Shown here: positions 11,801 through 49,594 of the stretch, piece by piece
Layout: each line of letters begins with the position of its first letter
Numbering within the stretch: position 1 is the first letter of the stretch
Source: an uncultured delta proteobacterium
GTDB taxonomy: Bacteria; Myxococcota; Myxococcia; Myxococcales; 40CM-4-68-19
Assembly (NCBI GenBank): GCA_903911145.1
Contig: CAIWCD010000024.1
Coordinates: forward strand, 186,001-250,000
Reading direction: 5' to 3'
DNA length: 64,000 nucleotides
Notes under the pieces: generated by a model
The model's database searches: none
What the model was told of the DNA's origin: nothing
What the model saw: only the letters and a program-made list of their open reading frames with translations
Translations under genes and position numbers: made by a program

Positions 11801-12198
11801 GCCACTTCACGCAGGTTGAGACGAAGATCAACGATCTCGTCGCGCTCAAGGCTGCGCTCGCCGAACTCAACATGGAGTTCGAGGAGTCGACGGCGGACTC
11901 GCTCGTGAAAGTGCGCGGCTGGAAGGGGTCGACACTCACCGCCGAGGCGAAGATCAAGGCTTCCAAGACCTACGACATCGGCCTCCAGCTCACCGAGGAG
12001 GGCAGCTACAAGCTGGTCGCCGACTGGTGGGGCATCGAGGAGGAGACGAACGAGGCCGCTGAGAAGCTGCAGCAGAAAGTCATTCAGTGCTACGCCAAGC
12101 ACAAAGTGAAGATCGAGGTTGAGAAGCAGGGGTTCACGCTCGACGCGGAGACGGTCGAAGCGGACGGCTCCATCAAGCTCGGCGTCTCGCGCTGGTAG
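11797..12198 (+). CDS. DUF1257 (Ycf35-like) protein
   Basis: The protein has 133 residues and starts at GTG 11797, which overlaps the ATPase stop by 4 nt (GTGA), so it is translationally coupled. The opening SHFTQVETKINDLVALKAAL and the closing YAKHKVKIEVEKQGF region match the DUF1257/Ycf35 family. The family's biochemical role is unknown. Its constant partner is the Ycf46 ATPase, which suggests an adaptor or substrate. It is a small soluble protein. Confidence 0.85.
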   Translation: MSHFTQVETKINDLVALKAALAELNMEFEESTADSLVKVRGWKGSTLTAEAKIKASKTYDIGLQLTEEGSYKLVADWWGIEEETNEAAEKLQQKVIQCYAKHKVKIEVEKQGFTLDAETVEADGSIKLGVSRW

Positions 12199-17065: not shown

Positions 17066-17130
17066 CGAACTCTCCAGATCGTTGCTATGCCAATCAATAT
17101 GCTTTGTACTCAAAGCAATCGTGCAGCCCG

Positions 17131-18213
17131 CTAACAGCCACTCGCAGCGGAGCAGTCGACCACCTGTGCACCGCGCAAAGCCGCGCCCACTGCGGACTCG
17201 ACGACCTCGGCGTTGACGTGCTTCCATGCCGCCGTACGCGCCCGCTCGCGTTCGCTCGGATGAATCCCGCGCATCTGCTGCGTGCGGCCCTCGCCTTCGC
17301 CGCCACCGAGGCAGCCGCGCGCGTGCAGGCGCACGGCCACTTCGCACTTTTCGCCGAGCGAACCTTCGCTGCACGTCTCCTCGGGCGAGACCACCAGCTC
17401 TGTCGCATCGGCCGCGTGATCCGTCACCTGCGCGCAGGTCTGGTTCTCCGCGACGCGCAGCCCGAGCTTTCGCACCGCCGCGACCGTGAGCTGGAGCAGC
17501 TCCGGCGCGGGCGCGCCTTCGATGCGCACCTCGACGACGCGGTAGGCCTCCGACTGCGCGGCCGCCTTGAGCAGCGCATCTCGCGTCGCAAAATATTGCC
17601 GCTCATCCTCGGACGGGTGCCCGAGCAACGCGCGCCGCACGATGAATGTCGCCTCCAGCGCGGGTCGCAGCTTCATCGCGTGGCCCTTGGCGGTCGCGAA
17701 CTCGCCGGGCTTGCCGTGATCGGCCGCCTGCTGCGCGGTCTCGCTGTACTGCGTGAACGTCACCAGATCGGCCTTCTGCGCGCGCGAGTACTCTGCGTCC
17801 GCCTTCGCCCGCTCGAGCACCGCACGTGCGTAGTAGGTCCCGCTCACCTCGGCGTGATCGCTGATGGCGATCAGATCGGCCCGCTCGAAGCGCGTGCGTT
17901 GCTTCACCTCGACCGACGCGCTCTGCGACTCCTTGTTGCCGCTCTCCTGCAGGAACGAACTCGTCTCCGCCGTCAGCTCCGCGGAGATGTCGGCCGCAAG
18001 CTTCGCGCGTGCCTGCAGCTCGGCATCGCCTTCCGACTGCGTCGAGCTGGCCACCTCGACGATGAATCGCGAGCGCGGATATTTCGGATCGTCCGTGGTG
18101 CTCGTCACGTACGACGGCAGCGGCCTGGGCCCCGCGCATCCGCTCGTCACCAACAGCGAGCCAGCGACAATCGCGAACGCGCTGCGGCCAAAAGTCGTGA
18201 GCGCCGCGCGCAT
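17131..18213 (-). CDS. LPP20-like lipoprotein
   Basis: The protein has 360 residues from ATG 18213, which overlaps the stop of the FHA coiled-coil gene (ATGA). The signal peptide ends in the lipobox VTSGC. The body (FIVEVASSTQSEGDAELQAR, LAADISAELTAE) is the helical/beta pattern of LPP20/LpoB-like periplasmic lipoproteins that begin by ordering alanine- and charge-rich helices after a Y-x-V-x-x-G-x-G-like strand. The C-terminal third has eight or so cysteines and ends in Cys, so disulfides are likely. The periplasmic thioredoxin-like gene sits directly downstream on the same strand. Confidence 0.75.
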   Translation of the reverse strand: MRAALTTFGRSAFAIVAGSLLVTSGCAGPRPLPSYVTSTTDDPKYPRSRFIVEVASSTQSEGDAELQARAKLAADISAELTAETSSFLQESGNKESQSASVEVKQRTRFERADLIAISDHAEVSGTYYARAVLERAKADAEYSRAQKADLVTFTQYSETAQQAADHGKPGEFATAKGHAMKLRPALEATFIVRRALLGHPSEDERQYFATRDALLKAAAQSEAYRVVEVRIEGAPAPELLQLTVAAVRKLGLRVAENQTCAQVTDHAADATELVVSPEETCSEGSLGEKCEVAVRLHARGCLGGGEGEGRTQQMRGIHPSERERARTAAWKHVNAEVVESAVGAALRGAQVVDCSAASGC

Positions 18214-20696
18214 CAGATCTTCGCCTTGAGCGTGACGCGCAGCTGCGCGCCATCGTCCTCTTCGCTCACCTCGACCTTGCCGCCGCAGCGATCGACAGCG
18301 AATCCGCGCACGAGCCGCGACTGCGCATCCGGCGGCTCCTTGTAGCGGTCGCGCATCTTCTCGTTCATGCACGAGACGTAGATCGTCACGGTGAGTCCGT
18401 CGGTGTCGATGCGCACGCTCGGGTGCTTGCCCTCTTCGGCATTCAGCTTCGCCTCGCTCAGCAGCGCGAACGCGAAGAGCACCGCCTCGTCCTTCGTCGC
18501 CTCGATCGCCGGCAGCACCGCCTCGATCTTCAGCGGGATGTCGACGTTCGCGTCAGTCGCGTGCATCAGCCCCTGCGCCTTCGCGAAGGCAGACTCCACC
18601 TCGACGCCCGCGCCCTCTTCCTTCTTGAACGCCTCGGAGTAGTCGAGCAGCAGCTTCTTCGCCTTGATGATGCTCTCGGAGTTCTCCTCGGAGATGCCTT
18701 GCATGTTCTTCACGATCACGTCCGGCTGCGTCTGGTCGATCAGCTCGACGAGCATCTGCTGCTGCTCCGACTCGAGCCGCGTGTAGTCGACGCGGCGGAT
18801 CGCATTCGCGAGCAGTCCGCAATCCTCGACGTAGCCCTTCATCAGCTCGGAGTTGCGCCGCAGGAGCGAGACGGAGTTGTTCACCTGCTCCATCATCTGC
18901 GAGACCATCGACTGGTGGATGTCGCCGCGCGCGGTGGCGAGCTTGAGCTGGCTCTCATCGACCGCACCCTCGTGGCCGCCGCCCTTCGCTGCCAGATCCT
19001 TCGCGGCCGCCAGCTCGCTCTTGAGCTTCGCGAGCTGCTTGCGCAGATCGGCGATCTCGTCCTGCGCCGATTTGTAACGAGCCTCCCAATCGCTCGAGAG
19101 CTGTGAGCCGGCCGCAGATGTGCGCTGCTCTCCCTCGAGATTGTCGACCTTCGCCTTCAGATCATCGCGCTCGCGGATGATGTCGTCGTACGTCCCGCGG
19201 ATCTTCGAGAGCTGCGCCTCGAGCTCTCCAGCGCGATCGATCGCGTCCTTCTCGCCGCTCGCGCGCGCGTCGCGATCTGCCTTGAGCATCGCAAGCTGCT
19301 TCTCGTGCGAATCGCGATCGCCGGTGTTGCGCAGAAGCTCCGAGAGCTGCCCCTCGAGCTTCGCCCGCGCATCCATCGCGTCGGTCATCGCCGTCTCGGC
19401 CTCTTCGAGCTGCCGACGCAGATCCTTGGTCGCGCCCTCGGACTGGTGCGCCTTGCCTTGCAGCGCACTCATCTCGTCCTTCGTCTTGGCGACCTCGGCC
19501 TCGAGCTTGTTGATCGAGTCCTGCATCTGCTTGGTGGCCTTCATCTGCTGCTCGACCGCCGCCGCGGCCTCCTCGCCGCCGCCGAGCTTGGCGATGATCG
19601 CGCGCGATTTTGCGATGTCCTGCACCAGATCGCCGCGCTCTTTTCCGAGCTGCGCGAGCTGCAGATTCTTCTGCTTCACCTTGTCGTTGAGCTCCTTCTC
19701 CTTGCCGGCCGCGGCGTTCGCGCCCTCGCGCAGAACCTTCAGCTCCTCCTGCAGCGCACTGTTCTTCTCATCGCGCGACTTGATCTCGCTCTGCACCTCA
19801 TCTTCGCGCTCGGAGAGCATCTTGATGAGGTCGTCCTTTTCCTTGAGCTGGCGCGCGACGGTGTCGCTCTCGGCTCCGCGGATGGCGATGCGGTGCTCCA
19901 TCTCCTTGATCTGCCGATGCAGCGTCTCGGTCTCGCGCCGCCGATCGGCCTCGATCGCCGCTTCCATGCGCTTTCGTTCGCGCTCGAGTTCGGCCGGCGA
20001 GTAGTAGGTCTCCTTCTCGTCGAGCTCCTTCTGGATGCGCTTCATCTCCTCGTCGCGCTGCTTGAGGAGCGTGCGCAGCTTCTCCGCATCGCTGCGTGCA
20101 CCGGCAGCCGCTTCGTGCGCGGCCTGCTCCTGCACCTGCTTCATCTGCGCCTTGAGCTTGCGGTTCTCCTCTTCGAAGAACGACAGCTTGTTCTTCACCG
20201 TGACGAGCTCGGCCTCGTCCGCGGTGCGCACTTCGGCGCGCAGCGCAGGACCCGAGGGCCGGCGCGGCTCGGGAGCTTCCGCCGCAGGAGAGACCGCACG
20301 CGGAGGAAGTCCTCCACCGACGCGCGCCGAGCCGGTGATCGGACGCTGGGGCATCGCACCCCGTCCTGGCTGCGAGGCAGGGACGCGGGCCACGGGCTTG
20401 GGCTTGGGCGCGTCGCCGACGAATCGGGCCTTGGTCATCCCGAACGTGATCTCGTCGCCGTCGTTGAGCGACTCGCGATCGATGTCCTTGTCGTTGACGA
20501 ACGTGCCGTTCGTCGAGCCGAGGTCCATCAGGTGCCAGGCACCGTCTTCGCTCCAGATCTTGGCGTGCTTCGACGAGACACCCTGATCGCCGATCTTGAT
20601 TGCGCAGCTCGAGGCGCGGCCGATGAACGACTCGTCCGGCGGGAGATCGAATTCCTGTCCTTCGAGCGAGCCAGTCAGAATGCGCAGCAACGCCAT
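18213..20696 (-). CDS. FHA domain - long coiled coil - degenerate HATPase-like protein
   Basis: The protein has 827 residues from ATG 20696, preceded by GGGGAC; the in-frame extension upstream lacks a ribosome site. FHA domain at 1-95: SFIGRASSCAIKIG, SSKHAKI, DLGSTNGTFVNDK. A Pro-rich linker is followed by some 420 residues of heptad-rich coiled coil (about 150-570). The last 220 residues end in GLTVTIYVSC and a G-F-A-V-D-R-C-G-G-K-V-E-V segment, which resembles the C-terminal half of a GHKL ATPase, but the N-box and a clear G1 box are missing. It is probably a cytoplasmic signalling scaffold. It is coupled to the downstream lipoprotein. Confidence 0.82.
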   Translation of the reverse strand: MALLRILTGSLEGQEFDLPPDESFIGRASSCAIKIGDQGVSSKHAKIWSEDGAWHLMDLGSTNGTFVNDKDIDRESLNDGDEITFGMTKARFVGDAPKPKPVARVPASQPGRGAMPQRPITGSARVGGGLPPRAVSPAAEAPEPRRPSGPALRAEVRTADEAELVTVKNKLSFFEEENRKLKAQMKQVQEQAAHEAAAGARSDAEKLRTLLKQRDEEMKRIQKELDEKETYYSPAELERERKRMEAAIEADRRRETETLHRQIKEMEHRIAIRGAESDTVARQLKEKDDLIKMLSEREDEVQSEIKSRDEKNSALQEELKVLREGANAAAGKEKELNDKVKQKNLQLAQLGKERGDLVQDIAKSRAIIAKLGGGEEAAAAVEQQMKATKQMQDSINKLEAEVAKTKDEMSALQGKAHQSEGATKDLRRQLEEAETAMTDAMDARAKLEGQLSELLRNTGDRDSHEKQLAMLKADRDARASGEKDAIDRAGELEAQLSKIRGTYDDIIRERDDLKAKVDNLEGEQRTSAAGSQLSSDWEARYKSAQDEIADLRKQLAKLKSELAAAKDLAAKGGGHEGAVDESQLKLATARGDIHQSMVSQMMEQVNNSVSLLRRNSELMKGYVEDCGLLANAIRRVDYTRLESEQQQMLVELIDQTQPDVIVKNMQGISEENSESIIKAKKLLLDYSEAFKKEEGAGVEVESAFAKAQGLMHATDANVDIPLKIEAVLPAIEATKDEAVLFAFALLSEAKLNAEEGKHPSVRIDTDGLTVTIYVSCMNEKMRDRYKEPPDAQSRLVRGFAVDRCGGKVEVSEEDDGAQLRVTLKAKI

Positions 20697-20780
20697 CGTC
20701 GTCCCCGGTGTTGAGAGCTGGGCTTCAAGAAGGGCGCGGCGAACCAGCCATGCGACGCGCGCTCTTTGCGAGGGGCGGAA

Positions 20781-20808
20781 ATTAGCCAGCCGGGTGGCCA
20801 CACGTCAA
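20781..20808 (-). promoter_or_regulatory. Candidate promoter for the FHA coiled-coil/lipoprotein operon
   Basis: Reading the minus strand, TTGACG (20808-20803, 5/6) is followed after 16 nt by GCTAAT (20786-20781, 4/6). This leaves a leader of about 80 nt to ATG 20696. It occupies the 292-nt divergent region shared with the kinase gene. Confidence 0.45.
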
Positions 20809-20901
20809 TCGCCAACCACCCGTCGCGTGATTGGACAAACCCGATGTCCCTTCAAACCGTTCCGCTCGACCGCGCACCTGCACGCCGCACGTTCACATCG
20901 C

Positions 20902-20931
20902 TTGACCCTCCTTGCTCACGCACGGTAGTTT
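20902..20931 (+). promoter_or_regulatory. Candidate promoter for the Ser/Thr kinase gene
   Basis: TTGACC (20902-20907) precedes TAGTTT (20926-20931) with an 18-nt spacer; the -10 match is weak. The kinase ATG lies about 58 nt further on. Together with the minus-strand candidate, this gives two diverging promoters in one 292-nt gap. Confidence 0.35.
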
Positions 20932-20988
20932 CCGGCGTTCGTGTGCCAGCGGCCTGGCCAGACATCAAAGCGATAGGCGGATCGGTAC

Positions 20989-23292
20989 ATGCCTGAGAGT
21001 GACGTCGGGTCGTATTTCGGGAAATATTTCCTGCTCAAGAAGCTCGCCGCCGGCGGCATGGGCGAAGTTTTTCTCGCCAAGCAGCAGGGTCCCGCCGGGT
21101 TCGAGAAGATCCTCATCATCAAGAAGGTCCTCGCGCACCTCACCGAGAACAAGGAGTTCGTCGAGCTCTTCTTGAGCGAGGCGCGGCTCGCGGCGCGGAT
21201 GAACCACCGCAACATCGTGCAGGTGTTCGAGCTCGGCGAACAGGACGGCAACTACTTCATCGCGATGGAGTACGTGCAGGGCAAGAGCCTGCGTGACGTG
21301 ATCGACGCGGCGATCAAGCGCAAGGAGAAGATCGCGGGCGAGCTCTGCCGCAGTGTCGTCGAGCAGATCTGCGACGGTTCGGCCTACGCGCACAACCTCA
21401 CCGATGTCGGCGGACGCTCGCTCAACATCGTCCACCGCGATCTCAATCCGCAGAACGTGCTCGTCAGCTACACCGGCGACGTGAAGGTCATCGACTTCGG
21501 CATCGCCAAGAGCGAGATGTCGACGGTCAAGACCGAAGCGGGGATGATCAAGGGCAAGTTCGTCTACATGAGCCCCGAGCAGACGCTCGCGAAGAAGCTC
21601 GACAAGCGCTCGGACATCTTCGCCATCGGCATCACGCTCTACGAGATGCTGACGGGCATCAACCCGTTCCACAAGAACAACATCGTCCTCACTCTCGAGG
21701 CGGTGCAGCGCTACGATCCGCCGCCGGTGAGCGAGTACGATCCGGCCTACGCGCCGTTCGATCCGATCATCGCCAAGGCGCTCGCGAAGGATCGCGACCG
21801 TCGATACAGCGACGCCACCGAGATGCAGGACGATCTGCGGCGTATCATCCTGCCGCCCGCGCCTGAGCGACTCTCGGTCTTCATGAGCCGGATCTTCCGG
21901 CAGCAGCTTGAGGAAGATCAGAAGCTGCTGAAGGACACAGATGCCGCTCGTGTGACTGCGGCAGCGAAGGCCTCGCGGACTCCCGCGAAGCCTGCGCCCG
22001 CGCACGCGGCCCCTGCCGAGCCCGCCGAGGGCGCGACGATGATGTTGCCGCAGGCCGCGAAGCCGGCGCCGAAAGCGGCGGTCAAGATTGCGCCCCGTCC
22101 TGCTCCGCGTGCTCCCGCGCCCCAGCCGCCGAAGAAGCCGGCGGGCGCTGGCGACACGCTGATGGACATGCAGGCGCCGATTCTTCCGCCGATGGACGAC
22201 AATCCTGGCGCTACGGCGATGCTCAAGCCCGGGACGCCGCTGCCTCCGCCGCGTGCGGCGGCGCCTGCGGCGAAGAAGGTCACGCAGACGATGCCCGATG
22301 CGGAGATTCCGGCGCCCGAGGAGGGCGAGGGCAAGACCGCGTTTCTCGGTACCGCGCCGCCGCGTCCACAGACACCGCGCAAGGCTCCAGTGGCGCCGCC
22401 TCCTTCCTCGAGCAACGTCGGGGTTGGCGGCACGAACATCATGACGCCGGAAGAGTCTCAGGCGGCCCAGCGCGAGGCGCTCGCGAAGATGTCGGGTCAG
22501 GGCCACACGCCGCCGAGTGCGCGTGCGCATCCTCCCGCAGCGCGTCCCGCGGCAGAACCGTCGGCGCCCATCAGCCGCAAGAAGCTCTTCGTCGGAATGG
22601 GCGTCGCGCTCGTGGTCGTCATCATCGTCACGTCTCTCGTCGTCGCGTTCAGCGGTGGCGAGCAGGCTCATCCGAAGAAGAAGTCTCCAATCCCTGCGCC
22701 AGTCGCTGACACGGCGCCGCCCGCGCCGGAGCCGGTCGCGCCGACGCCGACCCCCGCGCCTCAGCCTGCACCCAAGCCGACTCCTGCTCCGGAACCAGTG
22801 AAGGCAGAGGAAAAGGCGCCGGCACCCAAGAGGGACGAGCCGAAGAAGGAGGAGGCGAAGAAGGAGGAGGCGAAGAAAGACGAGAGCTCGATCGAGCCTC
22901 CGAAGAAGGAGGATAAGAAGAAGCCGGCGGCAAAGGGGTGGACGTTCCTGGTCAACGTCGGCTCAAGCACCGCGCTCTCCTTCAATGGCTCCTCGATGGG
23001 CAAGGTCTCGGGTGCGCAGCGGCTCGCGCTCACCGGCGACACCGGTACGGTCGATATTGGCGATGAGACGACTCCCTACAAGGTTACGCTCGAGTACACG
23101 CGCGCAGACAAGGAGCTCGTGCTCAAGGTGAAGAGCGCTCCGTGGGCGATCGTCTTCGTCGATCAGGTGAGCAAGGCCAAGACGCCAGTGTCCGACGTCC
23201 ACATCGGGGACAAGCTGACGCTGGTTGAGCTCAAGAAGCCGGGCCAGGATACGGGCATGCAGATCCGGCTTCGCTTCAGCGGCAGCAACTAG
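20989..23292 (+). CDS. Transmembrane Ser/Thr protein kinase
   Basis: The protein has 767 residues. The Hanks-type kinase domain (about 12-280) has a glycine loop LAAGGMGEVFLAK, a lysine pair in ILIIKKVL, catalytic HRDLNPQN (about 149), DFG (about 168) and APE-equivalent SPEQ. Asn replaces the usual Lys after HRDL; myxobacterial kinases often carry HRDVSPQN here, so activity is not excluded. Residues 300-525 are Ala/Pro-rich. A membrane helix (about 533-552, GVALVVVIIVTSLVVAF) is followed by a Pro/Lys-rich periplasmic stalk and a ~120-residue C-terminal beta domain that may sense a ligand. It is the obvious writer for the five FHA readers encoded nearby and stands immediately before the CIS genes. 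Confidence 0.93.
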   Translation: MPESDVGSYFGKYFLLKKLAAGGMGEVFLAKQQGPAGFEKILIIKKVLAHLTENKEFVELFLSEARLAARMNHRNIVQVFELGEQDGNYFIAMEYVQGKSLRDVIDAAIKRKEKIAGELCRSVVEQICDGSAYAHNLTDVGGRSLNIVHRDLNPQNVLVSYTGDVKVIDFGIAKSEMSTVKTEAGMIKGKFVYMSPEQTLAKKLDKRSDIFAIGITLYEMLTGINPFHKNNIVLTLEAVQRYDPPPVSEYDPAYAPFDPIIAKALAKDRDRRYSDATEMQDDLRRIILPPAPERLSVFMSRIFRQQLEEDQKLLKDTDAARVTAAAKASRTPAKPAPAHAAPAEPAEGATMMLPQAAKPAPKAAVKIAPRPAPRAPAPQPPKKPAGAGDTLMDMQAPILPPMDDNPGATAMLKPGTPLPPPRAAAPAAKKVTQTMPDAEIPAPEEGEGKTAFLGTAPPRPQTPRKAPVAPPPSSSNVGVGGTNIMTPEESQAAQREALAKMSGQGHTPPSARAHPPAARPAAEPSAPISRKKLFVGMGVALVVVIIVTSLVVAFSGGEQAHPKKKSPIPAPVADTAPPAPEPVAPTPTPAPQPAPKPTPAPEPVKAEEKAPAPKRDEPKKEEAKKEEAKKDESSIEPPKKEDKKKPAAKGWTFLVNVGSSTALSFNGSSMGKVSGAQRLALTGDTGTVDIGDETTPYKVTLEYTRADKELVLKVKSAPWAIVFVDQVSKAKTPVSDVHIGDKLTLVELKKPGQDTGMQIRLRFSGSN

Positions 23293-23306
23293 CTGGCAAG
23301 CGGCGC

Positions 23307-23612
23307 ATGGACGGATCGCGCAGCGAGGGGCCGCGCATCGAGCTGGGAAGCGGCGCTACGCGCGTTGTCTTCCCGCTCGTCCTGCGCGAGACGTTGATCG
23401 GACGAATCGACTCGAACCACGTTGTTCTCGACCACGCGAGCGTCTCGCGCATCCACGCGCGCCTGCATCGCGTCGGCGATCGCATCGAACTCGAGGATTG
23501 CGGCTCGTCGCTCGGCAGCCAGGTGAACGGCGAGCTCGTCGACCGGGTGTTTCTCAAGCATGGCGACGTCGTCAAACTCGGCGCGGTCAGCCTCCTTTTC
23601 CTCGAGGATTGA
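23307..23612 (+). CDS. Single-domain FHA protein
   Basis: This 101-residue protein is essentially one FHA domain: ETLIGRIDSNHVVLDHASVS, R-I-H-A-R-L, then DCGSSLGSQVNGE. The usual N of the S-S-N-G-T loop is replaced (S-S-L-G-S), so phosphothreonine affinity may be altered. It starts 14 nt after the kinase stop and is likely co-expressed with it. Confidence 0.8.
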   Translation: MDGSRSEGPRIELGSGATRVVFPLVLRETLIGRIDSNHVVLDHASVSRIHARLHRVGDRIELEDCGSSLGSQVNGELVDRVFLKHGDVVKLGAVSLLFLED

Positions 23613-23653
23613 CGCGCTCGGGAACGCATCCGCACGCGGAGTGCTGCGAGCCC

Positions 23654-23681
23654 TTGATCACGCGCGCGTGCGTGCTATAAA
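23654..23681 (+). promoter_or_regulatory. Candidate extended -10 promoter ahead of CIS block one
   Basis: TTGATC (23654-23659, 4/6) is followed after 16 nt by TATAAA (23676-23681, 5/6), which is preceded by TGC as in an extended -10. It lies in the gap before the small zinc-ribbon gene and gp25, so it may drive the baseplate genes separately from the kinase. Confidence 0.5.
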
Positions 23682-23760
23682 CCCCACACTCCGAATCAGA
23701 TCCAGGTTGAGACTCCCAGCTGGAAGCTGGTGTGTTGCACGAATGTCGAAAGGGGTGGCT

Positions 23761-23967
23761 GTGACGGAACCCGAAGACCGCCTGGCCGAGCTGGAATCGG
23801 TCTGGTACGAGGTGATCGAGGCGGTCAACGCCGGCCGCACCAACGGGCTTGCGTGCCCCGAGTGCAATCACCCCGATGGTCTGTCGGTCGAGGAGACGGG
23901 CGGCAAGGTGATCCTTCGCTGCCCTGGCTGCAACCGCGTCGTCGAGGTTCAGGTCAACACCGCTTAG
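23761..23967 (+). CDS. Small zinc-ribbon protein at the head of the CIS operon
   Basis: The protein has 68 residues. I chose GTG 23761 because GAAAGGGG lies 5 nt upstream; an in-frame ATG at 23743 has no ribosome site and would add six residues. Two cysteine pairs, ACPECNHPDG and RCPGCNRVV, should bind one zinc. The first 35 residues are a helix (EDRLAELESVWYEVIEAVNA). No family is recognised. It lies 22 nt before gp25, so a regulatory or assembly role in the CIS is possible. Confidence 0.7.
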   Translation: MTEPEDRLAELESVWYEVIEAVNAGRTNGLACPECNHPDGLSVEETGGKVILRCPGCNRVVEVQVNTA

Positions 23968-23989
23968 TCTCGAGAACGGGCTCTTCCTG

Positions 23990-24379
23990 ATGAGCAACTT
24001 TCTAGGCGTCGGCTTCAAGTTTCCCATCTGCGTGGGTCCCAACGGCGGGATCCAGCTGTCGAAGTATGAGCAGAACATCGAAGAGGCGGTGCGCATCATC
24101 ATCGGCACCGCACTGGGAGAGCGGCAGATGCGCCCCGACTGGGGCTGCCGCATCCACGACTTCGTATTCGCGCCGAACAACACCAGCACGCAGACTCTCG
24201 TCGGTCACCACGTCGAAGAGGCGCTCGCCAAGCACGAGTTCCGCATCCGCGACATCAAGGTCGAGGCGATGCCGGATCCCGATCAACTCGAGCGGATCCT
24301 CGTCGACGTGCGCTACATGATCCGCGCCACCAACAGCATTCACAACCTGGTCTTCCCCTTCTATTTGACTGGCAGCTAG
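23990..24379 (+). CDS. GPW/gp25 family baseplate protein
   Basis: The protein has 129 residues. GERQMRPDWGCRIHDFVFAP is the diagnostic gp25/GPW core (family form: E-R-x-M-R-P-D-F-G-C), followed by a helical and a beta C-terminal part. In phage tails, type VI systems (TssE) and Afp9-like CIS proteins it is an inner-baseplate wedge component that contacts the sheath. It is followed directly by baseplate J, the usual order. Confidence 0.95.
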   Translation: MSNFLGVGFKFPICVGPNGGIQLSKYEQNIEEAVRIIIGTALGERQMRPDWGCRIHDFVFAPNNTSTQTLVGHHVEEALAKHEFRIRDIKVEAMPDPDQLERILVDVRYMIRATNSIHNLVFPFYLTGS

Positions 24380-24456
24380 AGAGCCTTTTTTCGCGCGCGG
24401 CGGGGCGGTATATGCGGCGCGAGTGCAGCTCTTAGAGAACGTATCCGAGGGTTTCG

Positions 24457-27432
24457 ATGAGCCTCCCAGTACCGAATCTCGACGACCGCTCCTGGAAGCA
24501 GATCGTGGACGAGGCCGTGCGCCTCATTCCCCGGTATTGCCCCGAGTGGACCAACCACAACGCGAGCGATCCCGGCGTCACGCTCCTCGAGCTCTACGCG
24601 TGGATGACCGAAATGGTCATCTATCGACTCAACAAGGTGCCGGAGAAGAACTTCCTCACCTTCCTCGATCTGATCGGCGTGCGGCTGCAACCGCCCGAGC
24701 CGGCGCGCGCGGTGCTTGAGTTTACGGCGAGCGACGGCGTCGAGGGCGAGCTGGTCGTACGCAAGGGAACGCAGATCGCGACGCTGCAGGCGGGCGGCGG
24801 CGATCCGGTCACGTTCGAGACGCTGCGCGATATCACGCTGCTGGCCGTCAAGGTCACGCGCGCGGTGTCGAGCCACCGCACGACTGTGGCCGATCACACC
24901 GAAGCGCTCTTCACGGGCGAGGCCAACGAATCTCTCTTCGCGGGAGTGCAGGAGGTCGAGCGGTTCCTCTACGTCGGCGATGATCGCCTGAACGCGCTCA
25001 ATGAAGAGGCCGCAGTCGATCTTCTCTTCGAGATGATGCCCGGCTCGTCTGGTCCGAGCATTCCGTCGATTACCGAGTGGCAATACTTCGACGGCAAGCG
25101 CTGGCGCGAGATGACCATTAACCGCGCCGAGAGCGACGCGCGCCGCATCGCATTCGGCAGCCACCCGGGCATCGAGAAGCAGATCGTCAACGGCAAGGAG
25201 ACCTTCTGGGTGCGCGGCAAGCTCGCCGAGCCGCTCAAGGATCCCGCGTCGGTGCAGATCGATTCGATCCAGTTGCGCGTGGAGATTCTCGGCGAGGGAA
25301 TGGCGCCGGAGACCGCGTTCGTCAATATCGGTAATTACATCTTCCTGCCGGTCGATCAGGGCAAGAGCTTCCACCCTTTCGGGGAGGAGCCGAAGTTTGA
25401 TTGCGCGCTCTATCTCGGACATAAGGAGCTCTTCTCGGCTCCGGAAGCGCGCATCCGCATCGAGTCGCAGCTGGTTGAACCGTCGATTGTCCAGACGCCC
25501 GAGGCCAGCCCCGACTTAATGATTCATTGGGAGTATTTTAATGGTCGCAAGTGGGGCGAGTTGGGCCGCACGGGTGGCATGGGCGTCTCGGGAAACCAGG
25601 GGCCTTATAATTTCCTCGACAGCACCGGTGCGTTCACGCGCAACGGCTCGGTTACGTTCGATCGCCCCGTCGATATGTCCGAGGTTGAAGTCGGCGGCGT
25701 GAAGAACATGTGGATCCGCGCGCGCATCAACTCGGGCAACTATGGCGCGCCGGGCTCGTATGAAATGGTCGGGCAGAACTGGGTATTCAAGGAAGACCGC
25801 CCGCTGCGTCCGCCCTGCTTGAAGAGCCTCGTCTTCAAGTATGTGCGCGAGCCGAAGCCCATGCAGTACTGCATGAGCTACAACGACTTCCAGTATCGCG
25901 ATCACAGCGAGGATCTGGCGACGCCGTACGTCTATTTCCAGCCGTTCCTTCCCGAGCAGGACGAGAGCCCGGCGTTCTATCTCGGGTTTGATAAGAAGCT
26001 CCCCCAGCGCACGATTCATCTCTATTTCGCGCTCGACGATCTCGAGAGCGCGGGCAGTGCGCAGCTCGGCGGCTCCGCTCCTGGTGCGGCCGAGGGCGAA
26101 GAGGAGAAGAAGGGTCCGCGCGTCGTCTGGGAGTATTGGGACGGTGGCCGCTGGGCCGATCTGCTCCCCGAGGACGGGACCTATGGGTTTACCCGTTCGG
26201 GATATCTCGATTTCGACGGCCCGAAGGGGCTCGAGAAGCGCTCGGTGTTTGATACCGAGGCCTTCTGGCTGCGCGCTCGATTGGAGTCGGGTGCTTACGA
26301 TCTCCCGCCCAAGCTCAAGGCCGTTCTGGTGAATGCAGTCGACGCGATTAACGGCGTGACGATCGAGGAGATCCTCGGTTCCAGCGATGGCGCGCAGGAT
26401 CAGAAATTCACGACCGCCAATGCGCCGCTGCTTGCGGGTCCGCAAGTCTGGATCCTTGAGCCCGACGCGCCGACGCCGGCTGATCGCAAGGTCATTCTCG
26501 AGCAGGAAGGCTTCGATGCCATCCATGCCGACGAGGATGGTCGCGGAACCTGGGTGCGCTGGCACGAGACCGAGAATCTCTTCGACTCGGAGCCGAACAG
26601 CCGCCATTACCTCTGCGATCCGATTAAAGGCGATATTACCTTCGGCGATGGGCGCAAGGGATATGTCCCGCCCAAGAGCCGCGATTCGGTCAAGATCGAA
26701 TATCGAATGGGTGGCGGAGTCGCGGGCAACGTCGGGCCGCACACGCTGACGGTGCTCAAGCAGTCGGTCGCGTTCGTCTCCAATGTCGACAATCCGTTTC
26801 CTGCTTCGGGCGGCGCGGATCCGGAAACGATCGACGAGGCCAAGCAGCGCGGCACGTATGCGATCAAGAATCGCGATCGCGCGATCACCTCGGAGGATTA
26901 CGAGCAGCTTGCGCTCGCGGCCAGCCGTCGCGTGGCGCGCGCCAAGTGCGTGCAGGGTTCGGATGGATCGATCTCGCTGCTGCTCGTTCCCAAGGCGGAG
27001 CGTGAAGATGGTGATGCCCGCGCTGTTCCTTCGCGCGATCTGATCGATCGCGTGGCGGCATATATCGATCGTCGCCGCCTGATTACCGCGCGCGTGAACG
27101 TCGGGAAGCCGAAGCAGGTTCCGCTCTCGCTCGAGCTCGTCGTTTCGCTCAAGCCGGGCGCAACGGCGGATCGCGTGAAGAGCGACGTGAAGGAGAAGGT
27201 CAAGCGCCTGCTCAATCCGCTGAAGGGCGGCCCCAAGGCGGACGGCTGGCCCTTTGGCCGCGCTGTCGGCAAGGCCGATCTCTATCCCGTCGTTGAAGGC
27301 GTCGAGGGCGTCGATCGCATCACCGATCTGGCGATCATCGACGAGAGCAAGCGGCTGCGCGTGGAGATGCTGAAGCTGGACGACGATGAGTTGCCGCAGC
27401 TGATCGGCATCGAGATCTACGACCGGGGATAG
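24457..27432 (+). CDS. Baseplate assembly protein J (Afp11-like)
   Basis: The protein has 991 residues, in the range for CIS-type gpJ. The N-terminus LIPRYCPEWTNHNASDPGVT, leading to a L-L-E-L-Y-A-W-M-T-E motif, is typical of the 'putative baseplate assembly protein' family. The C-terminal J domain shows RGTYAIKNRDRAITSEDYEQ, the P-F-x-S-x-G-G-x-D-x-E-T segment before it, and a final L-P-Q-L-I-G-I-E-I-Y. It forms the baseplate wedge around the hub. Codon use leans to GAT/TAT/ATT like dnaE and the first half of the giant gene, unlike most neighbours. Confidence 0.95.
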   Translation: MSLPVPNLDDRSWKQIVDEAVRLIPRYCPEWTNHNASDPGVTLLELYAWMTEMVIYRLNKVPEKNFLTFLDLIGVRLQPPEPARAVLEFTASDGVEGELVVRKGTQIATLQAGGGDPVTFETLRDITLLAVKVTRAVSSHRTTVADHTEALFTGEANESLFAGVQEVERFLYVGDDRLNALNEEAAVDLLFEMMPGSSGPSIPSITEWQYFDGKRWREMTINRAESDARRIAFGSHPGIEKQIVNGKETFWVRGKLAEPLKDPASVQIDSIQLRVEILGEGMAPETAFVNIGNYIFLPVDQGKSFHPFGEEPKFDCALYLGHKELFSAPEARIRIESQLVEPSIVQTPEASPDLMIHWEYFNGRKWGELGRTGGMGVSGNQGPYNFLDSTGAFTRNGSVTFDRPVDMSEVEVGGVKNMWIRARINSGNYGAPGSYEMVGQNWVFKEDRPLRPPCLKSLVFKYVREPKPMQYCMSYNDFQYRDHSEDLATPYVYFQPFLPEQDESPAFYLGFDKKLPQRTIHLYFALDDLESAGSAQLGGSAPGAAEGEEEKKGPRVVWEYWDGGRWADLLPEDGTYGFTRSGYLDFDGPKGLEKRSVFDTEAFWLRARLESGAYDLPPKLKAVLVNAVDAINGVTIEEILGSSDGAQDQKFTTANAPLLAGPQVWILEPDAPTPADRKVILEQEGFDAIHADEDGRGTWVRWHETENLFDSEPNSRHYLCDPIKGDITFGDGRKGYVPPKSRDSVKIEYRMGGGVAGNVGPHTLTVLKQSVAFVSNVDNPFPASGGADPETIDEAKQRGTYAIKNRDRAITSEDYEQLALAASRRVARAKCVQGSDGSISLLLVPKAEREDGDARAVPSRDLIDRVAAYIDRRRLITARVNVGKPKQVPLSLELVVSLKPGATADRVKSDVKEKVKRLLNPLKGGPKADGWPFGRAVGKADLYPVVEGVEGVDRITDLAIIDESKRLRVEMLKLDDDELPQLIGIEIYDRG

Positions 27433-27454
27433 TTCCTTCCTTCGAATTGAACGC

Positions 27455-27470
27455 GATAGTTCGAACTATC
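27455..27470. repeat. 16-bp perfect palindrome between baseplate genes
   Basis: GATAGTTCGAACTATC reads the same on both strands. It lies in the 63-nt gap between baseplate J and tail protein I, 25 nt before the ATG at 27496. It could be an operator or an RNA hairpin near the start of the next gene. Confidence 0.5.
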
Positions 27471-27495
27471 CATAGATATCCAGGGTCCCATCGAT

Positions 27496-28413
27496 ATGGC
27501 TGAACAGAAACTCGAGCTCCTGCCGCCCATCGCCCCGCCTCTGATCGGTCTGCCGATCGGCCAGGCGCGGCGCGTGGCGAAGAAGCGCGCGGGCGCCACC
27601 ATCGAGATTAAACTCGTGGAGAGCGAAGGGCCGGCGCTGACCGTCGTTCGCCAGTTTCCCGAGGAGGGCGACGAGCTCAACGACAAGCGGATCATCAAGC
27701 TCGAGATCGCGACGCGGCCCTGGATTCAATACCTGCCCGGTATCTATCAAGACGCAGATGAAGAGAACGCGGACTTCCTCCAGCGCTTCCTCTTGATCTC
27801 GCAGCAGCTCACGTCGGGCATTGAAGAGCGGCTCGAGTTTCTCCACGAGTTCTTCAGCCCGCGCACGACGCCCGAGAAGTTTCTCCCTTGGCTCGGCTCG
27901 TGGCTGGCGATGCCGCTGCTCGAGGGCTGGGACGAGGAGAAGCGTCGCGAGATCCTCCAGCGCACGCCGGAGCTCTATCGCCTGCGCGGGACGGCAAAGG
28001 GCCTGAAGCTTGCGCTGCGGCTCTTCGCTGACGTGAAGGCGGAGATTAAAGAAGGCGAATGGCCTTATCCGGGAATGGTGATCGGCAAGAGCTCGACGAT
28101 CGGCATCGATACGACGCTCTCTCCTCCCGTCTTCATTTCGCAGTGCTTCTCGGTGCTGCTGCCCGACAAGAAGAACGAGGTGCCGCGCGAGAAGCTGCGC
28201 ACGGTGCACGCGCTCGTCGAGACGGAGAAGCCAGCGCACGCGCACTACGCGGTGGTGTTCGAGAAGACGGAGCCGGTCTACGAGGCGGTTCCGTTCCTGC
28301 ACATTGGCAAGGCGGCCCGGATTGGCGTCGATACGCGCATCGGTGGAACGGAAGACATTCCGCCGGTGCTCGATGAAGAGCTTCAGCAGTTGAAACAGGG
28401 GCGGCGCAACTAG
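27496..28413 (+). CDS. Tail protein I (Afp12-like) with N-terminal PASTA-like domain
   Basis: The protein has 305 residues. Residues 80-230 are the tail protein I family domain: WIQYLPGIYQDADEENADFL, FLPWLGSWLAMPLLEGWDEE, and R-L-R-G-T-A-K-G-L. The family partners gpJ in the baseplate wedge. Residues 10-75 are extra. PPLIGLPIGQARRVAKKRAG and the later R-Q-F-P-E-E-G-D-E-L followed by I-I-K-L-E-I match the layout of a PASTA domain (P-x-x-x-G-x-x-x-x-x-A, Q-x-P-x-x-G, then a V-x-L-x-V strand). PASTA modules bind peptidoglycan stem peptides or beta-lactams, so this may be a wall-contact element; the PASTA reading is by eye. Confidence 0.88.
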   Translation: MAEQKLELLPPIAPPLIGLPIGQARRVAKKRAGATIEIKLVESEGPALTVVRQFPEEGDELNDKRIIKLEIATRPWIQYLPGIYQDADEENADFLQRFLLISQQLTSGIEERLEFLHEFFSPRTTPEKFLPWLGSWLAMPLLEGWDEEKRREILQRTPELYRLRGTAKGLKLALRLFADVKAEIKEGEWPYPGMVIGKSSTIGIDTTLSPPVFISQCFSVLLPDKKNEVPREKLRTVHALVETEKPAHAHYAVVFEKTEPVYEAVPFLHIGKAARIGVDTRIGGTEDIPPVLDEELQQLKQGRRN

Positions 28414-28481
28414 ACCTTTTCGCGTTTGACACAGACGCCCTCTTGATGTTGTGAGGGTGCCCACGATTTTGGAGGACGGAC

Positions 28482-29999
28482 ATGGCGGAGCAGGCCAATT
28501 TCAAGCGTATCAACTTCTTCGAAGGCTTCTTCACGACCGACGAAGACTGGAACGCAGCCGAGGCGTATCACCTCGAGAAGCGTCGACTGCATAACCGCGT
28601 TCTGCACACGCCGGGCGTCGTTCCCGTCGCGGCAGGCGGTCTTCGCGTGCAGGCGCGCGGACGCAGCGATCTCTCGTTCGAGGTTGCGCCGGGCTATGGC
28701 ATCGACGGGCGCGGCAATGAGCTGGTGCTCCGCGATCCGGGCGTGAAGGTCGTCGAGGCGGACAAGCTCAAGCTGCCGCAGACCATCTACATCGCCATCA
28801 AGTACTTCGAGGAGCCGACCGACTTCATTGCGTACAAGGAGAACCCGCGTTTCAAGGGTCACCGGCGCATCGAGGAGAAGGTCAAGATCGAAGTCATGAT
28901 GCGCGAGCCGGACGGCGTCGAGGCGCTCGAGCTCGGTCGCATCCGTCTCGAGGAGGGTGTGCGCGAAATCCGCGACGCGCTCGACCCGCGCGTGCCCGGC
29001 CCGGGCGAAATCGATCTGCGCTTCGTTCCCATCGCGGGATATGCCGGCAGCCACGCGACGCCGCAGCTGCGCAATGAGATCGCCAATGGCCTCTCCGAGA
29101 AGGCCGTGCTCTCGGCGCTCCTGGCCAAGCTGGGCGTGGTCCCGGCGAACTATCTGCGCCAGGCTGTTCTCGCCGCGGAGCTGCTCAACTCAAGCAACGG
29201 CATTGGCCCGTTCAATCTCGCCGACTGCCTGCTCGCGATCGTCGAGCTCGAGCGCGAGATGATCGAAGCGATCGAGAAGGACTTCCCGCAGATCGCCGCG
29301 CGCAAGGGCTTCGCTGATTACAAGAAGGCGCTCGAGGCGCTCACCAAGGTCGTCCGCGATCGCCCGCGCGATGCGGACGGATGCATGGGTGTCGCGCGCT
29401 TCCTCAACGCGAGCAACCAGGCGCTCACGCCGATCGTCAAGGAGAAGCTTGCACCGACGCAGAAGACGAACGCGAAGGGCGAGCAGGTCACCTGGAAGGA
29501 CGTCGTCGTCCGCTCGAAGGACTTCCCGGAAGAGCTCAACATCGACGGCTCGAACTTCACGCGCGTCGATCATCTCCAGCTCGTCAACGACGAGTCGGAG
29601 AAGGCGCACAAGTTCGCCATCGAAGGCCAGAAGGATATGTGGAAGAGCCGCCAGACCTTCACCTATCCCGATAAGGAGTCGGTTGCCGACTCAGGCGTCG
29701 CTTATATCGGCGGCCAGGCGAAGTGGCAGGTGCACAACCTCAAGCCCGGCAAGGATATGATCGTCATCAAGCGGTTCGATGCGATCTTGGGCGAGCAGAT
29801 CTGCGATATCCTCGTCGATAGCAAGAAAGTCGGGCAGTGGAAGGTCACGGAGGCGGATCGCAAGCACCGCTGGCGCAACCACTACTTCCTCGTGCCGGGC
29901 ACGTTCATTACCGCGGAGACCATCGAGATGGTTTCCAAAGCCGTCTCGGCAGAGCGCGACATCAACATGTTCCAGCTCTGGTTCTATCAGCCGGCTTAA
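28482..29999 (+). CDS. Large CIS baseplate/surface protein of unknown family
   Basis: The protein has 505 residues; GGAGGAC precedes the ATG. Residues 1-160 carry INFFEGFFTTDEDWNAAEAY and EKRRLHNRVLHTPGVVPVA, then F-E-V-A-P-G-Y-G-I-D-G-x-G. This layout (F-F-x-G, Y-x-x-E-K-R-R-L-H-N, G-x-G-V-V, then a repeat of short beta strands) recurs in proteins next to gpI in CIS loci of high-GC bacteria. The middle is helical. The C-terminus looks like a jelly-roll (VIKRFDAILGEQICDILVDS, R-W-R-N-H-Y-F-L-V-P-G-T), as in carbohydrate-binding domains. The position fits a tail-fibre or baseplate-periphery protein; function is not established. Confidence 0.78.
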   Translation: MAEQANFKRINFFEGFFTTDEDWNAAEAYHLEKRRLHNRVLHTPGVVPVAAGGLRVQARGRSDLSFEVAPGYGIDGRGNELVLRDPGVKVVEADKLKLPQTIYIAIKYFEEPTDFIAYKENPRFKGHRRIEEKVKIEVMMREPDGVEALELGRIRLEEGVREIRDALDPRVPGPGEIDLRFVPIAGYAGSHATPQLRNEIANGLSEKAVLSALLAKLGVVPANYLRQAVLAAELLNSSNGIGPFNLADCLLAIVELEREMIEAIEKDFPQIAARKGFADYKKALEALTKVVRDRPRDADGCMGVARFLNASNQALTPIVKEKLAPTQKTNAKGEQVTWKDVVVRSKDFPEELNIDGSNFTRVDHLQLVNDESEKAHKFAIEGQKDMWKSRQTFTYPDKESVADSGVAYIGGQAKWQVHNLKPGKDMIVIKRFDAILGEQICDILVDSKKVGQWKVTEADRKHRWRNHYFLVPGTFITAETIEMVSKAVSAERDINMFQLWFYQPA

Positions 30000-30038
30000 G
30001 CTGCTTAGCTCGTTGCTTGAAAGGATTGGGGACCGCCC

Positions 30039-30680
30039 ATGATGGTAATGATTTTCGATCGAGTGCTGTCGCTGTTCACCAACCGCCAGGGCGGTTCGGG
30101 TAAGGGGAAGGTCTGCCCGAACGGCCACGTCATGCAGCCCTCGTGGGATATCTGTCCCTATTGCCAGCAGATGCAGGAGTCGATGCGCAATGCTGGTGGC
30201 GCTGGCGGCGGGGGTGGTGGTGGTGGCGGTGGCGGCGGTGGCGGGATGGATATGAGCGGCGGCATGGGCGCGATGGCGGCCGGCGGCGGCACCGTGATGG
30301 TCAACGCGTCGGAGATCAGCAGCTCCGGCGCGGAGAAGGGCCGCGGCTCGGCCGACAAGTCGCGTGAGGTCTGCGGCTGGCTGGTCGCGCTCAATGGCCA
30401 GCACAAGGGCGAGGACTTCCGCCTGCGCATTGGCAAGAACGTGATCGGCACCGCTGCTGATTGCGACATCGTGCTTTCGGATAAGAAGCTTTCGCGCAAG
30501 CACGCGACCATTCGCTACGAGGGCGGAGAGTTTCAGATCGCTGACCTCGACTCGTCGAACGGCACGCACGTGAACGACGAGAAAGTGCAGAAGCACGACC
30601 TGATCGACAACGACATCATCAAGCTGGGCGACATCGAGTTTGAGTTCAAGTGCCGTGCGATGCGCGCGCGTCGCGATTAA
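30039..30680 (+). CDS. Zinc ribbon - Gly-rich linker - FHA protein
   Basis: The protein has 213 residues; the ATG at 30042 is an equally good start. Residues 28-46 form a zinc ribbon of the form C-P-x-G-H-x-M-Q-P-S-W-D-I-C-P-Y-C. A flexible linker follows with a run of about 16 consecutive or near-consecutive glycines and a Met/Gly segment. The C-terminal FHA domain has NVIGTAADCDIVLSDKKLSR, K-H-A, and DLDSSNGTHVNDEK, so the phosphothreonine pocket looks intact. There is no membrane helix. It shares its zinc-ribbon layout with the next gene. It lies inside the CIS operon and is a likely reader of the upstream kinase. Confidence 0.88.
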   Translation: MMVMIFDRVLSLFTNRQGGSGKGKVCPNGHVMQPSWDICPYCQQMQESMRNAGGAGGGGGGGGGGGGGGMDMSGGMGAMAAGGGTVMVNASEISSSGAEKGRGSADKSREVCGWLVALNGQHKGEDFRLRIGKNVIGTAADCDIVLSDKKLSRKHATIRYEGGEFQIADLDSSNGTHVNDEKVQKHDLIDNDIIKLGDIEFEFKCRAMRARRD

Positions 30681-30710
30681 GCACCTTTTCGCTTTGAGAA
30701 GAGATCCGTG

Positions 30711-32177
30711 ATGACGTGCTCCATTCGTGCCTTCCGGCTTGGCCTCGTTGCATTGGCCGCGCTCCTTCTTTCCCCGACGCTCGCGCTCGCTGCGGGCGCA
30801 GCGCTCACCATCCAGCAGGTCGAGCTGCGCCAGAAGACGTGGCCTCACGGCCGCGCCTACGTGAACGTGATCGGCAGCACTGGCTCTCCGTTTCAGGGCC
30901 TCTCCGCCGATCTGTTCAAGGTCTATGAAGGCGGCAACAGCGGGACCTCGAAGATCCTCCACGTCGATACGCTCGAGGCCGCGCAGACCGGCGCGAGCAT
31001 CGTCGTCGTCGTGCAGGCGTCCGGCGCGTGGATGGGAATTCAGGAGGACGTGAAGAAGGCGGTCGCGGCCTTCGTCAACGGACTCGGCGAGAAGGATCAA
31101 GTTGCGGTCGTCGATTACGCAGAGTCGGCCGAGACGCTCGCGCCTTTCTCCGCCGAGAAGGGCGACGTGGCCGGGAAGGCCGCCAAACTCACCGCCAATG
31201 GACGCAGCTATCTTCTCTATGACGGATTATCGCAGGCGCTGTCGCTCTATGCCTCCGCAGCCGCGCCGGGCAAGGGCGCCGCATCGACCGAAGGCAGCCT
31301 GCTTCCCGTCGCGAAGGCGATCATCGTCATCTCCGACGGCCGCGACAACGGCAGCGCCACCGACGTCGAGAAGGTGATTAACGACGCCGTCAAGCGCAAG
31401 ATCCCGGTCCACTGTGTCGGCCACTCGGAGCTTGGCGACGACAGCCTGCACGCGCTCGAGGAGATCGCGCACCGCACGGGCGGAACGTACAAGGCCGCGC
31501 CGGGCGTGGACGACATCAACAAGTCGCTCACGGCGATCAAGGATTACATCTACAAAATGTACGTCGTCGAGTGGAAGACCGACCTTCCTCATGATGGCAA
31601 GGAGCACAAGATTGAGATCGCGCTCGAGACCGATGGCGGCGCGAATCTGCGCGCATCGCTGGTCACGAAGACGCCCGACTTCATCGACTGGATCTTCATC
31701 GGCATCATCGCGGGCTCGATCCTTCTCGTCATCATCATCATCGTCGTCGTCTATATCCTCACGCGCCCCAAGCCGATCCCGCCGCGCTTCTGTCCGGTCT
31801 GCAAGCGCGAGCAGATGCCCGATTGGGAGATCTGCCTCTTCTGCCTCAAGGCGGCGAAGGCCCGCTTCCAGGTTCAGAAGGGCGCGCAGAAGGGCAAGGT
31901 CTATCCGCTTGTCGGCAAGATCGTCAGCATCGGGTCTGGCCCGGAGACGAGCATCCGCTTGATGGACGGCGCGATCTCGGGCAAGCACGCGGGCGTTGCG
32001 ATCGACGACAACAAGTTTGAAGTCGTCGATCTCGGCTCGAAGAACGGCGTGCTCGTCAATGGCAAGAAGACGCCGCGCCGCTTCCTGCGCAACGGCGATA
32101 TCGTCACGCTCGGCACGACGGAGCTCAAGTTCGAGAGCACCATCCAGACCGCGGGCGACGAAGACGCGGACGATTAA
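30711..32177 (+). CDS. vWA - transmembrane - zinc ribbon - FHA protein
   Basis: The protein has 488 residues from ATG 30711; GTG 30708 would add one residue. Signal peptide (LGLVALAALLLSPTLALAAG), then a vWA domain (about 85-260) that retains AIIVISDGRDNG. Its metal site is broken: the expected D-x-S-x-S is VQASGAW. One membrane helix (about 325-347, IFIGIIAGSILLVIIIIVVV) is followed by a zinc ribbon CPVCKREQMPDWEICLFC and an FHA domain (KIVSIGSGPETSIRLMDGAI, S-G-K-H-A, DLGSKNGVLVNGK). The vWA domain would be periplasmic and the FHA cytoplasmic, linking an outside protein contact to phosphothreonine signalling. Confidence 0.88.
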   Translation: MTCSIRAFRLGLVALAALLLSPTLALAAGAALTIQQVELRQKTWPHGRAYVNVIGSTGSPFQGLSADLFKVYEGGNSGTSKILHVDTLEAAQTGASIVVVVQASGAWMGIQEDVKKAVAAFVNGLGEKDQVAVVDYAESAETLAPFSAEKGDVAGKAAKLTANGRSYLLYDGLSQALSLYASAAAPGKGAASTEGSLLPVAKAIIVISDGRDNGSATDVEKVINDAVKRKIPVHCVGHSELGDDSLHALEEIAHRTGGTYKAAPGVDDINKSLTAIKDYIYKMYVVEWKTDLPHDGKEHKIEIALETDGGANLRASLVTKTPDFIDWIFIGIIAGSILLVIIIIVVVYILTRPKPIPPRFCPVCKREQMPDWEICLFCLKAAKARFQVQKGAQKGKVYPLVGKIVSIGSGPETSIRLMDGAISGKHAGVAIDDNKFEVVDLGSKNGVLVNGKKTPRRFLRNGDIVTLGTTELKFESTIQTAGDEDADD

Positions 32178-47485: not shown

Positions 47486-47557
47486 GTCGTGGCTACCCCA
47501 CTCACTTCGAACCTAGCCTTCGGGAGAGATCCCAAGAAGGTCGAGAAGCGTCCACCG

Positions 47558-48229: not shown

Positions 48230-48247
48230 ACATCCTTGGAGAAACCT

Positions 48248-48340: not shown

Positions 48341-48342
48341 AC

Positions 48343-49578: not shown

Positions 49579-49594
49579 TCAGAGCTGACTCTGC

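Follow-up and report, generated by a model that had tools for sequence, protein, structure and literature searches.

FHA and VWA membrane-protein genes belong to a contractile injection system lineage of Myxococcota and Spirochaetota and suggest docking at the envelope

The window analysed here is the whole 64,000-nucleotide stretch of contig CAIWCD010000024.1 (positions 186,001 to 250,000), from the 5.3 Mb genome of an uncultured member of the Myxococcota whose relatives are uncultured Myxococcales/Deltaproteobacteria metagenome-assembled genomes. It carries a contractile injection system (CIS), recognised by its sheath, tube, gp25, baseplate J, spike and cap genes; the whole genome has only two sheath genes, both at this locus. 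An earlier prediction from the sequence had placed one membrane Ser/Thr kinase and five FHA proteins in and beside the CIS genes, and had read them as a phosphothreonine circuit by which the apparatus is attached or triggered at the envelope. Pfam matches were obtained for the kinase and for all five FHA genes, and the CIS gene set was confirmed. The FHA genes at 12428, 23307 and 30039 were as predicted; the one at 18213 proved to be transcribed divergently, from a start near 20696, and the fifth was found to start at 30708 rather than 30711. The three proteins said to span the inner membrane do have predicted helices, namely the kinase, the product of 12428 (one helix) and that of 30708 (a signal peptide and one helix).

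The genes from 20989 to 32177 look like one operon, since they lie on the same (plus) strand with intergenic gaps of 14 to 130 bp. The first encodes a Ser/Thr (Hanks) kinase with one predicted transmembrane (TM) helix (20989 to 23292; PF00069, 2e-40). It is followed by a small FHA protein, FHA_s (23307 to 23612; whole-genome FHA search, 7e-17), a small zinc-ribbon protein recognised by sequence (23743 to 23967), whose position is conserved across Myxococcota loci, and the Cis9-like gp25 baseplate protein (23990 to 24379; PF04965, 1e-21). Next are a Cis11-like Baseplate_J protein (24457 to 27432; PF04865, TIGR02243) and a Cis12-like Tail_P2_I protein (27496 to 28413; PF09684, partial NF053768), for both of which the nearest solved structure was the Streptomyces coelicolor CIS (9gtp, 4e-82; 9gtp_E, 1e-8). 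The operon is completed by 28482 (28482 to 29999), a putative TssK-like or CIS13-like baseplate adaptor; FHA_Zn (30039 to 30680; PF16697/PF00498, 5.7e-21 for FHA), a soluble protein with a zinc ribbon and an FHA domain lacking the phosphate-binding arginine; and FHA_VWA (30708 to 32177; PF00092, PF16697, Pfam FHA 3.4e-14), with a signal peptide, a predicted extracytoplasmic VWA domain, a TM helix, a zinc ribbon and a second arginine-less FHA domain. The Tail_P2_I protein, a cytoplasmic baseplate protein, has a PASTA-like N-terminal domain (E 0.0014); the usual place of the PASTA fold is in the extracytoplasmic parts of kinases.

The two remaining FHA genes lie at lower coordinates. FHA_SLT (12428 to 13969, plus strand; PF00498 1.9e-20, PF01464) consists of a cytoplasmic FHA domain, one TM helix and an SLT lytic transglycosylase domain, which is predicted to lie on the opposite side of the membrane from the FHA domain. 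FHA_CC (18213 to 20696, minus strand; PF00498 1.3e-19) combines an FHA domain with a long coiled coil; its open reading frame (ORF) spans 18213-20801 with a start near 20696, and it is transcribed divergently from the kinase. The genome has 29 FHA matches, so that 0.11 would be expected per 20 kb, and the Poisson probability of five in 20 kb is 1e-7, or 3e-5 over all windows. An AAA+ ATPase with a single, Ycf46/CDC48-like AAA domain (10079 to 11800, plus strand; PF00004 1.5e-26) and a paired DUF1257 protein (11797 to 12198, plus strand; PF06868 5e-21) are a further part of the CIS-linked system; the AAA+ gene was found 3' of the FHA genes in 9 lineage loci and DUF1257 in 19 loci, including those of spirochaetes.

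CIS loci were collected by a Baseplate_J alignment search of 84,980 species genomes, a procedure unbiased as to FHA, which yielded 80 loci; 18 Myxococcota-clade and 10 spirochaete loci were left out as short contigs. An FHA gene, with the VWA gene where the contig allows, was found directly after 28482 in 32 of 37 assessable Myxococcota-clade loci and in all 10 assessable spirochaete loci. No FHA gene was found there in any of the 24 other CIS loci, in agreement with the original prediction that such loci normally lack these genes. The difference (42/47 against 0/24) gave a Fisher probability of 2e-14, which serves as a guide only, as the loci are related by descent. FHA was absent from cyanobacterial, Accumulibacter and related CIS loci, and from 20 CIS loci with a more remote Baseplate_J in Myxococcaceae-like genomes. 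In the Baseplate_J tree, every locus with the FHA/VWA genes fell inside one clade (support 85/92).

The gene order Baseplate_J, Tail_P2_I, 28482, FHA_Zn, FHA_VWA was kept, where the contig allows, in seven members of the window's family and two related families. Four of the five exception genomes encode a full-length VWA-FHA homologue elsewhere, unlinked to the CIS. Among 189 Myxococcota genomes, 11 had both this CIS and VWA-FHA, 2 the CIS only, 1 VWA-FHA only and 175 neither; thus 11 of the 12 genomes with VWA-FHA have the CIS, and the twelfth is 87% complete. The conserved linkage indicates that the FHA genes at 30039 and 30708 are part of a CIS lineage spanning Myxococcota and Spirochaetota. 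Cultured spirochaetes that carry the lineage with its FHA and VWA genes are Treponema lecithinolyticum (locus L128), Breznakiella homolactica (L130) and Alkalispirochaeta alkalica (L121). No account of FHA or VWA-TM genes at CIS loci was found in the literature, a weak negative, as the main CIS survey (Chen et al. 2019) lay outside the search.

The kinase has intact catalytic motifs (HRDLNPQN and DFG) and, from its sequence, a hydrophobic helix near residue 540; a Hanks kinase in the membrane, its catalytic motifs intact, is likewise part of the threonine phosphorylation pathway of type VI secretion systems (T6SS). It precedes gp25 in the seven family members and the two related families, and only in these three families (f1, f3 and f4) is a kinase beside gp25 and the zinc-ribbon gene conserved. 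As judged by this distribution, it is a local addition. A role as a core CIS part was rejected, since the kinase is missing from the fetched flanks of most other Myxococcota loci and of all spirochaete loci. The neighbourhood survey that had been proposed as a refuting test thus upheld the co-occurrence of FHA genes with this CIS type and failed to extend that of the kinase beyond three families. Stray kinases occur in other loci, with an unrelated one in L126, another in L079 and a distant one in L066. The kinase of genome G054 has 290 aa and leaves no room for a membrane span.

The FHA domains fell into two groups with respect to the phosphate site. In FHA_Zn, the phosphate-binding arginine was missing from all 33 Myxococcota-clade loci, where it is replaced by Thr, Ser or Asp, and in FHA_VWA it was replaced in 28 of 31. 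The spirochaete FHA is a separate 120-aa zinc-ribbon protein with an eroded phosphate site. FHA_s has lost the binding-site Asn, and its only orthologue was in G055. FHA_SLT (with its orthologues, where covered) and FHA_CC have the Arg, Ser and Asn intact, and the FHA-coiled-coil proteins of the lineage kept the Arg in 17 of 17 cases. Between 18213 and the coiled-coil FHA proteins of other families, orthology could be supported no further than the FHA domain. In T6SS Fha, the Arg and Ser of the site bind phosphothreonine (PMC3953482). Because nearly all orthologues have lost the Arg, the FHA domains in FHA_Zn and FHA_VWA look like structural modules and not phosphothreonine readers; reading of phosphothreonine by these two proteins is unlikely but not impossible.

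The architecture of FHA_VWA, with its signal peptide, VWA domain, TM helix and zinc ribbon, is conserved in alignments as far as the spirochaetes, where the VWA protein stops after the zinc ribbon. Since the spirochaete FHA is a separate protein, the conserved unit is, as deduced from these alignments, an extracytoplasmic VWA domain, a TM helix and a cytoplasmic zinc ribbon together with an Arg-less FHA domain that may be fused or a partner. In a structure model of FHA_VWA (pLDDT 85), both the VWA and the FHA folds were present. The DxSxS motif of the metal ion-dependent adhesion site (MIDAS) was not found in FHA_VWA, the alignment columns reading QASG/QNSG or SNNG/SASG.

The gene at 28482 gave no Pfam match and no significant direct sequence match to the PDB. 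When its AlphaFold2 model (pLDDT 85) was searched with Foldseek, TssK was the top match (6e-8) and more TssK chains were high on the list. IglD, the Francisella TssK homologue, aligned with the model over 230 residues in the range 12-314 with a Z score of 9.9, which exceeds the 7 to 8 quoted for unmatched models; the fit was loose (root-mean-square deviation 6.8). In a second structural comparison, the matches listed were mostly to the C-terminal jelly roll, which resembles carbohydrate-binding modules (CBM), with IglD in addition; likeness to further families is possible. The likeness to TssK is in predicted fold only, and PF05936, which identifies TssK by sequence, was absent from the genome. 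The first 110 residues matched the CIS13 family NF053767 (NCBIfam, 7e-8); this match covers the N terminus only and scored 32 bits against a full-length cut-off of 370. A profile comparison with Anabaena Cis19 was weak (0.25). Identity of 28482 within the window's family was 86-91%, level with sheath and gp25, and for that reason the protein suits the part of an invariant partner better than that of a target-specific fibre.

Gene content, linkage, predicted topology, predicted fold and a baseplate nearest to that of the intracellular Streptomyces CIS together suggest that this CIS is docked at the envelope. The reading favoured here, with moderate confidence, is that the Myxococcota/Spirochaetota CIS is held to the inner membrane via 28482, 30039 and 30708, with a phosphorylation layer in one branch. 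The product of 28482 would sit on the baseplate, and soluble FHA_Zn would bridge it to FHA_VWA, which would place its VWA domain in the periplasm and its zinc ribbon and FHA domain on the cytoplasmic side. The inner membrane would thereby hold the particle, or recruit it for firing, in parallel with TssK and TssL/M in T6SS or with CisA as proposed in Streptomyces. Both 30039 and 30708 would use their FHA domains mainly as structural interaction modules, and the periplasmic VWA domain, lacking the first MIDAS motif, may be a scaffold or a sensor of an envelope cue. In the window's branch, the kinase and the intact sites of 18213 and 12428 may add phosphothreonine control of assembly or firing, the SLT domain of 12428 may make a local opening in the wall, and the AAA+ and DUF1257 proteins could recycle or load the particle. 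As regards the envelope attachment of the original prediction, a VWA-TM protein, a predicted TssK-like adaptor in the baseplate operon and their linkage were all found; from these we infer attachment itself, as well as the order of contacts, the targets of the kinase and the opening of the wall.

Several observations weigh against this reading. The CBM-like jelly roll of 28482 would suit a receptor-binding fibre, and the TssK-like fold also occurs in fibres: a shape like that of TssK is reported for Alg19, the fibre of AlgoCIS, which is a released particle (PMC8894135), so that this fold alone is no proof of docking. A few genomes carry the VWA gene apart from the baseplate genes, and the support at the base of the clade is moderate. 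In addition, loss of the Arg need not abolish phosphothreonine binding, as the R30A substitution alone merely lowered secretion in Agrobacterium Fha and R30A/S46A was needed to abolish it (PMC3953482).

Two alternatives were judged unlikely, and to a similar degree. The first is a circuit of the PpkA/Fha1 type, in which the kinase would mark CIS or membrane proteins, all five FHA proteins would read the marks and firing would be licensed. The T6SS precedent, the kinase with intact catalytic motifs at the head of the closely spaced baseplate operon, and the R, S and N residues kept in FHA_CC and FHA_SLT are in keeping with it; however, two of the baseplate-operon FHA domains are Arg-less across the lineage, FHA_s lacks the Asn, most lineage loci have no kinase and the G054 kinase is too short for a TM helix. 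Against the TagH/Fha family (TIGR03354; cut-off 120.25), FHA_Zn scored 39.8 bits and FHA_VWA 23.9, with no match listed for FHA_CC, and among the main genes of the window Pfam turned up no PP2C phosphatase of the PppA type. The circuit originally predicted was therefore not sustained for the baseplate-operon FHA proteins, and a layer of kinase and intact FHA domains is plausible in the window's family and its two relatives only.

Equally doubtful is release of the particle in the manner of Afp/PVC, with the VWA-TM-FHA protein serving as an envelope sensor for expression, lysis or loading without touching the baseplate. The structural genes are of CIS/extracellular CIS (eCIS) type, related Myxococcota clusters have been described in the literature as eCIS, and an extracytoplasmic VWA domain could sense. 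This explanation has to contend with FHA_Zn and FHA_VWA genes that follow the baseplate genes in a tight operon across two phyla, with the predicted TssK-like adaptor, and with a Pfam search that found no classical Afp13-type or other tail fibre, though 28482, which joins a CIS13-like N terminus to a CBM-like C terminus, may be a candidate for one. A MoxR/VWA-type chaperone pair of AAA+ and VWA proteins for assembly or recycling of sheath or baseplate, with FHA as adaptor, was considered very improbable: the AAA+ and DUF1257 genes recur in the lineage, but the VWA domain is predicted to be periplasmic and the AAA+ protein cytoplasmic, and by NCBIfam the AAA+ domain resembles those of CDC48 and proteasome ATPases and not that of MoxR. 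The genome abounds in FHA genes (29 matches) and in kinase genes (35 matches), but that they adjoin here by chance has next to no probability given the genome-wide cluster probability and the linkage across phyla, which together refute chance clustering for FHA_Zn and FHA_VWA.

Comparison with known systems revealed partial likenesses. The CIS of Streptomyces coelicolor is cytoplasmic, has no conventional fibres and depends on the membrane protein CisA to fire (PMC12237407); it shares with the window the closest Baseplate_J and Tail_P2_I proteins and, as far as Pfam shows, the lack of a conventional tail fibre, whereas CisA is not described as a VWA/FHA protein, no FHA or TssK-like adaptor is reported and the host is Gram-positive. 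In Anabaena, Cis13 ties an anchored CIS to the thylakoid (PMC8894136), and 28482 matches CIS13 at its N terminus and Cis19 weakly; there, however, Cis13 anchors through its own TM helix, together with an extension of Cis12, and there is no FHA or VWA protein. AlgoCIS Alg19 shares the TssK-like shape and differs in belonging to a released particle. With T6SS TssK/IglD and TssL/TssM, the locus has in common the predicted fold of 28482, the logic of an adaptor followed by a membrane protein (the C terminus of TssK binds the membrane complex; PMC9600919) and kinase/FHA neighbours, but its membrane part is VWA/FHA. In a search with a working positive control, PF06744 (IcmF_C, TssM/IcmF) was, like PF05936, absent from the genome. 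On these grounds, the idea that the FHA genes form part of a T6SS encoded at another site was rejected, and the module is not the property of such a system. The T6SS PpkA/Fha/PppA pathway likewise has a membrane kinase and FHA proteins, and differs in the points raised above (Arg loss in two FHA proteins, TagH score, no PP2C among the scanned genes).

Two further systems resemble the membrane proteins. The type III secretion system (T3SS) ring protein SctD (YscD/PrgH) has an FHA-like cytoplasmic domain (PF16697), one TM helix and an extracytoplasmic scaffold domain; in the window the corresponding scaffold is VWA, and FHA_Zn scored 37.8 for the SctD family against a cut-off of 86. Archaeal ArnA (zinc finger-FHA) and ArnB (vWA) show the same type of pairing, and the ArnAB complex 8s05 was among the best folds; unlike the window proteins, which have lost the Arg and the first MIDAS motif and place the VWA domain outside the cytoplasm, ArnA retains its phosphate site and regulates archaellum expression. 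The locus may represent a class of CIS that is anchored in the envelope and differs from T6SS i-iv, the thylakoid CIS and the Streptomyces CIS, in which a TssK-like adaptor on a VWA/zinc-ribbon/FHA complex would replace TssJLM, with a kinase layer in one branch; this proposal is tentative, with the balance close to even. Members of the proposed class would be found in Myxococcota and in Spirochaetota, among the latter cultured Treponema, Alkalispirochaeta and Breznakiella.

The way in which a CIS is attached to the cell that makes it distinguishes weapons that are released from machines that strike outwards while the cell lives. The links found described in the literature are TssJLM, Cis13/Cis12 and the proposed CisA link. 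If docking holds, the module would add one more link, built independently, that two phyla have in common and that can be recognised by its genes (TssK-like gene, Zn-FHA, VWA-TM), and loci now classed as extracellular CIS could be sorted by mode of action; the question becomes testable in cultured spirochaetes. The analysis also suggests that FHA domains have taken on structural roles here, as they have in T3SS rings, and FHA neighbours should therefore not be taken as phospho-signalling before their binding residues are checked.

The domain arrangement of FHA_SLT, in which a lytic transglycosylase is joined via a TM helix to an intact-site FHA domain, makes it a possible phospho-gated wall opener. 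A thioredoxin/AhpC-like gene (16457-17374) lies 3' of FHA_CC on the minus strand and is conserved in the window's family together with a 413-aa protein of no known function (17131-18372). The other CIS genes occupy the plus strand downstream of the baseplate operon. A 4346-aa protein (34340 to 47380) has a baseplate hub (GPD) N terminus (PF05954, 0.0014; phrog_52 tail, 6e-29) and a helical extension of ~4000 aa. Its counterparts have ~1400-1700 aa in relatives, and other CIS have a hub of ~340 aa between the LysM and spike genes; one possibility is that the hub has been joined to a tape measure or a cargo. The region from 47489 to 60158 contains cap, sheath, tube, tail chaperone, LysM tube adaptor and spike genes, with Pvc16 starting at 47489, the sheaths at 48343 and 50974, the tube at 49695, the LysM tube adaptor at 57727 and the spike at 58391, together with ORFs 52948 and 59070, which have no assignment. 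A 1570-aa Ser/Gly/Ala-rich protein (52969-57681), encoded after the second sheath and before the LysM tube adaptor, has no family match and is among the fastest-evolving products of the locus (34% identity within the window's family).

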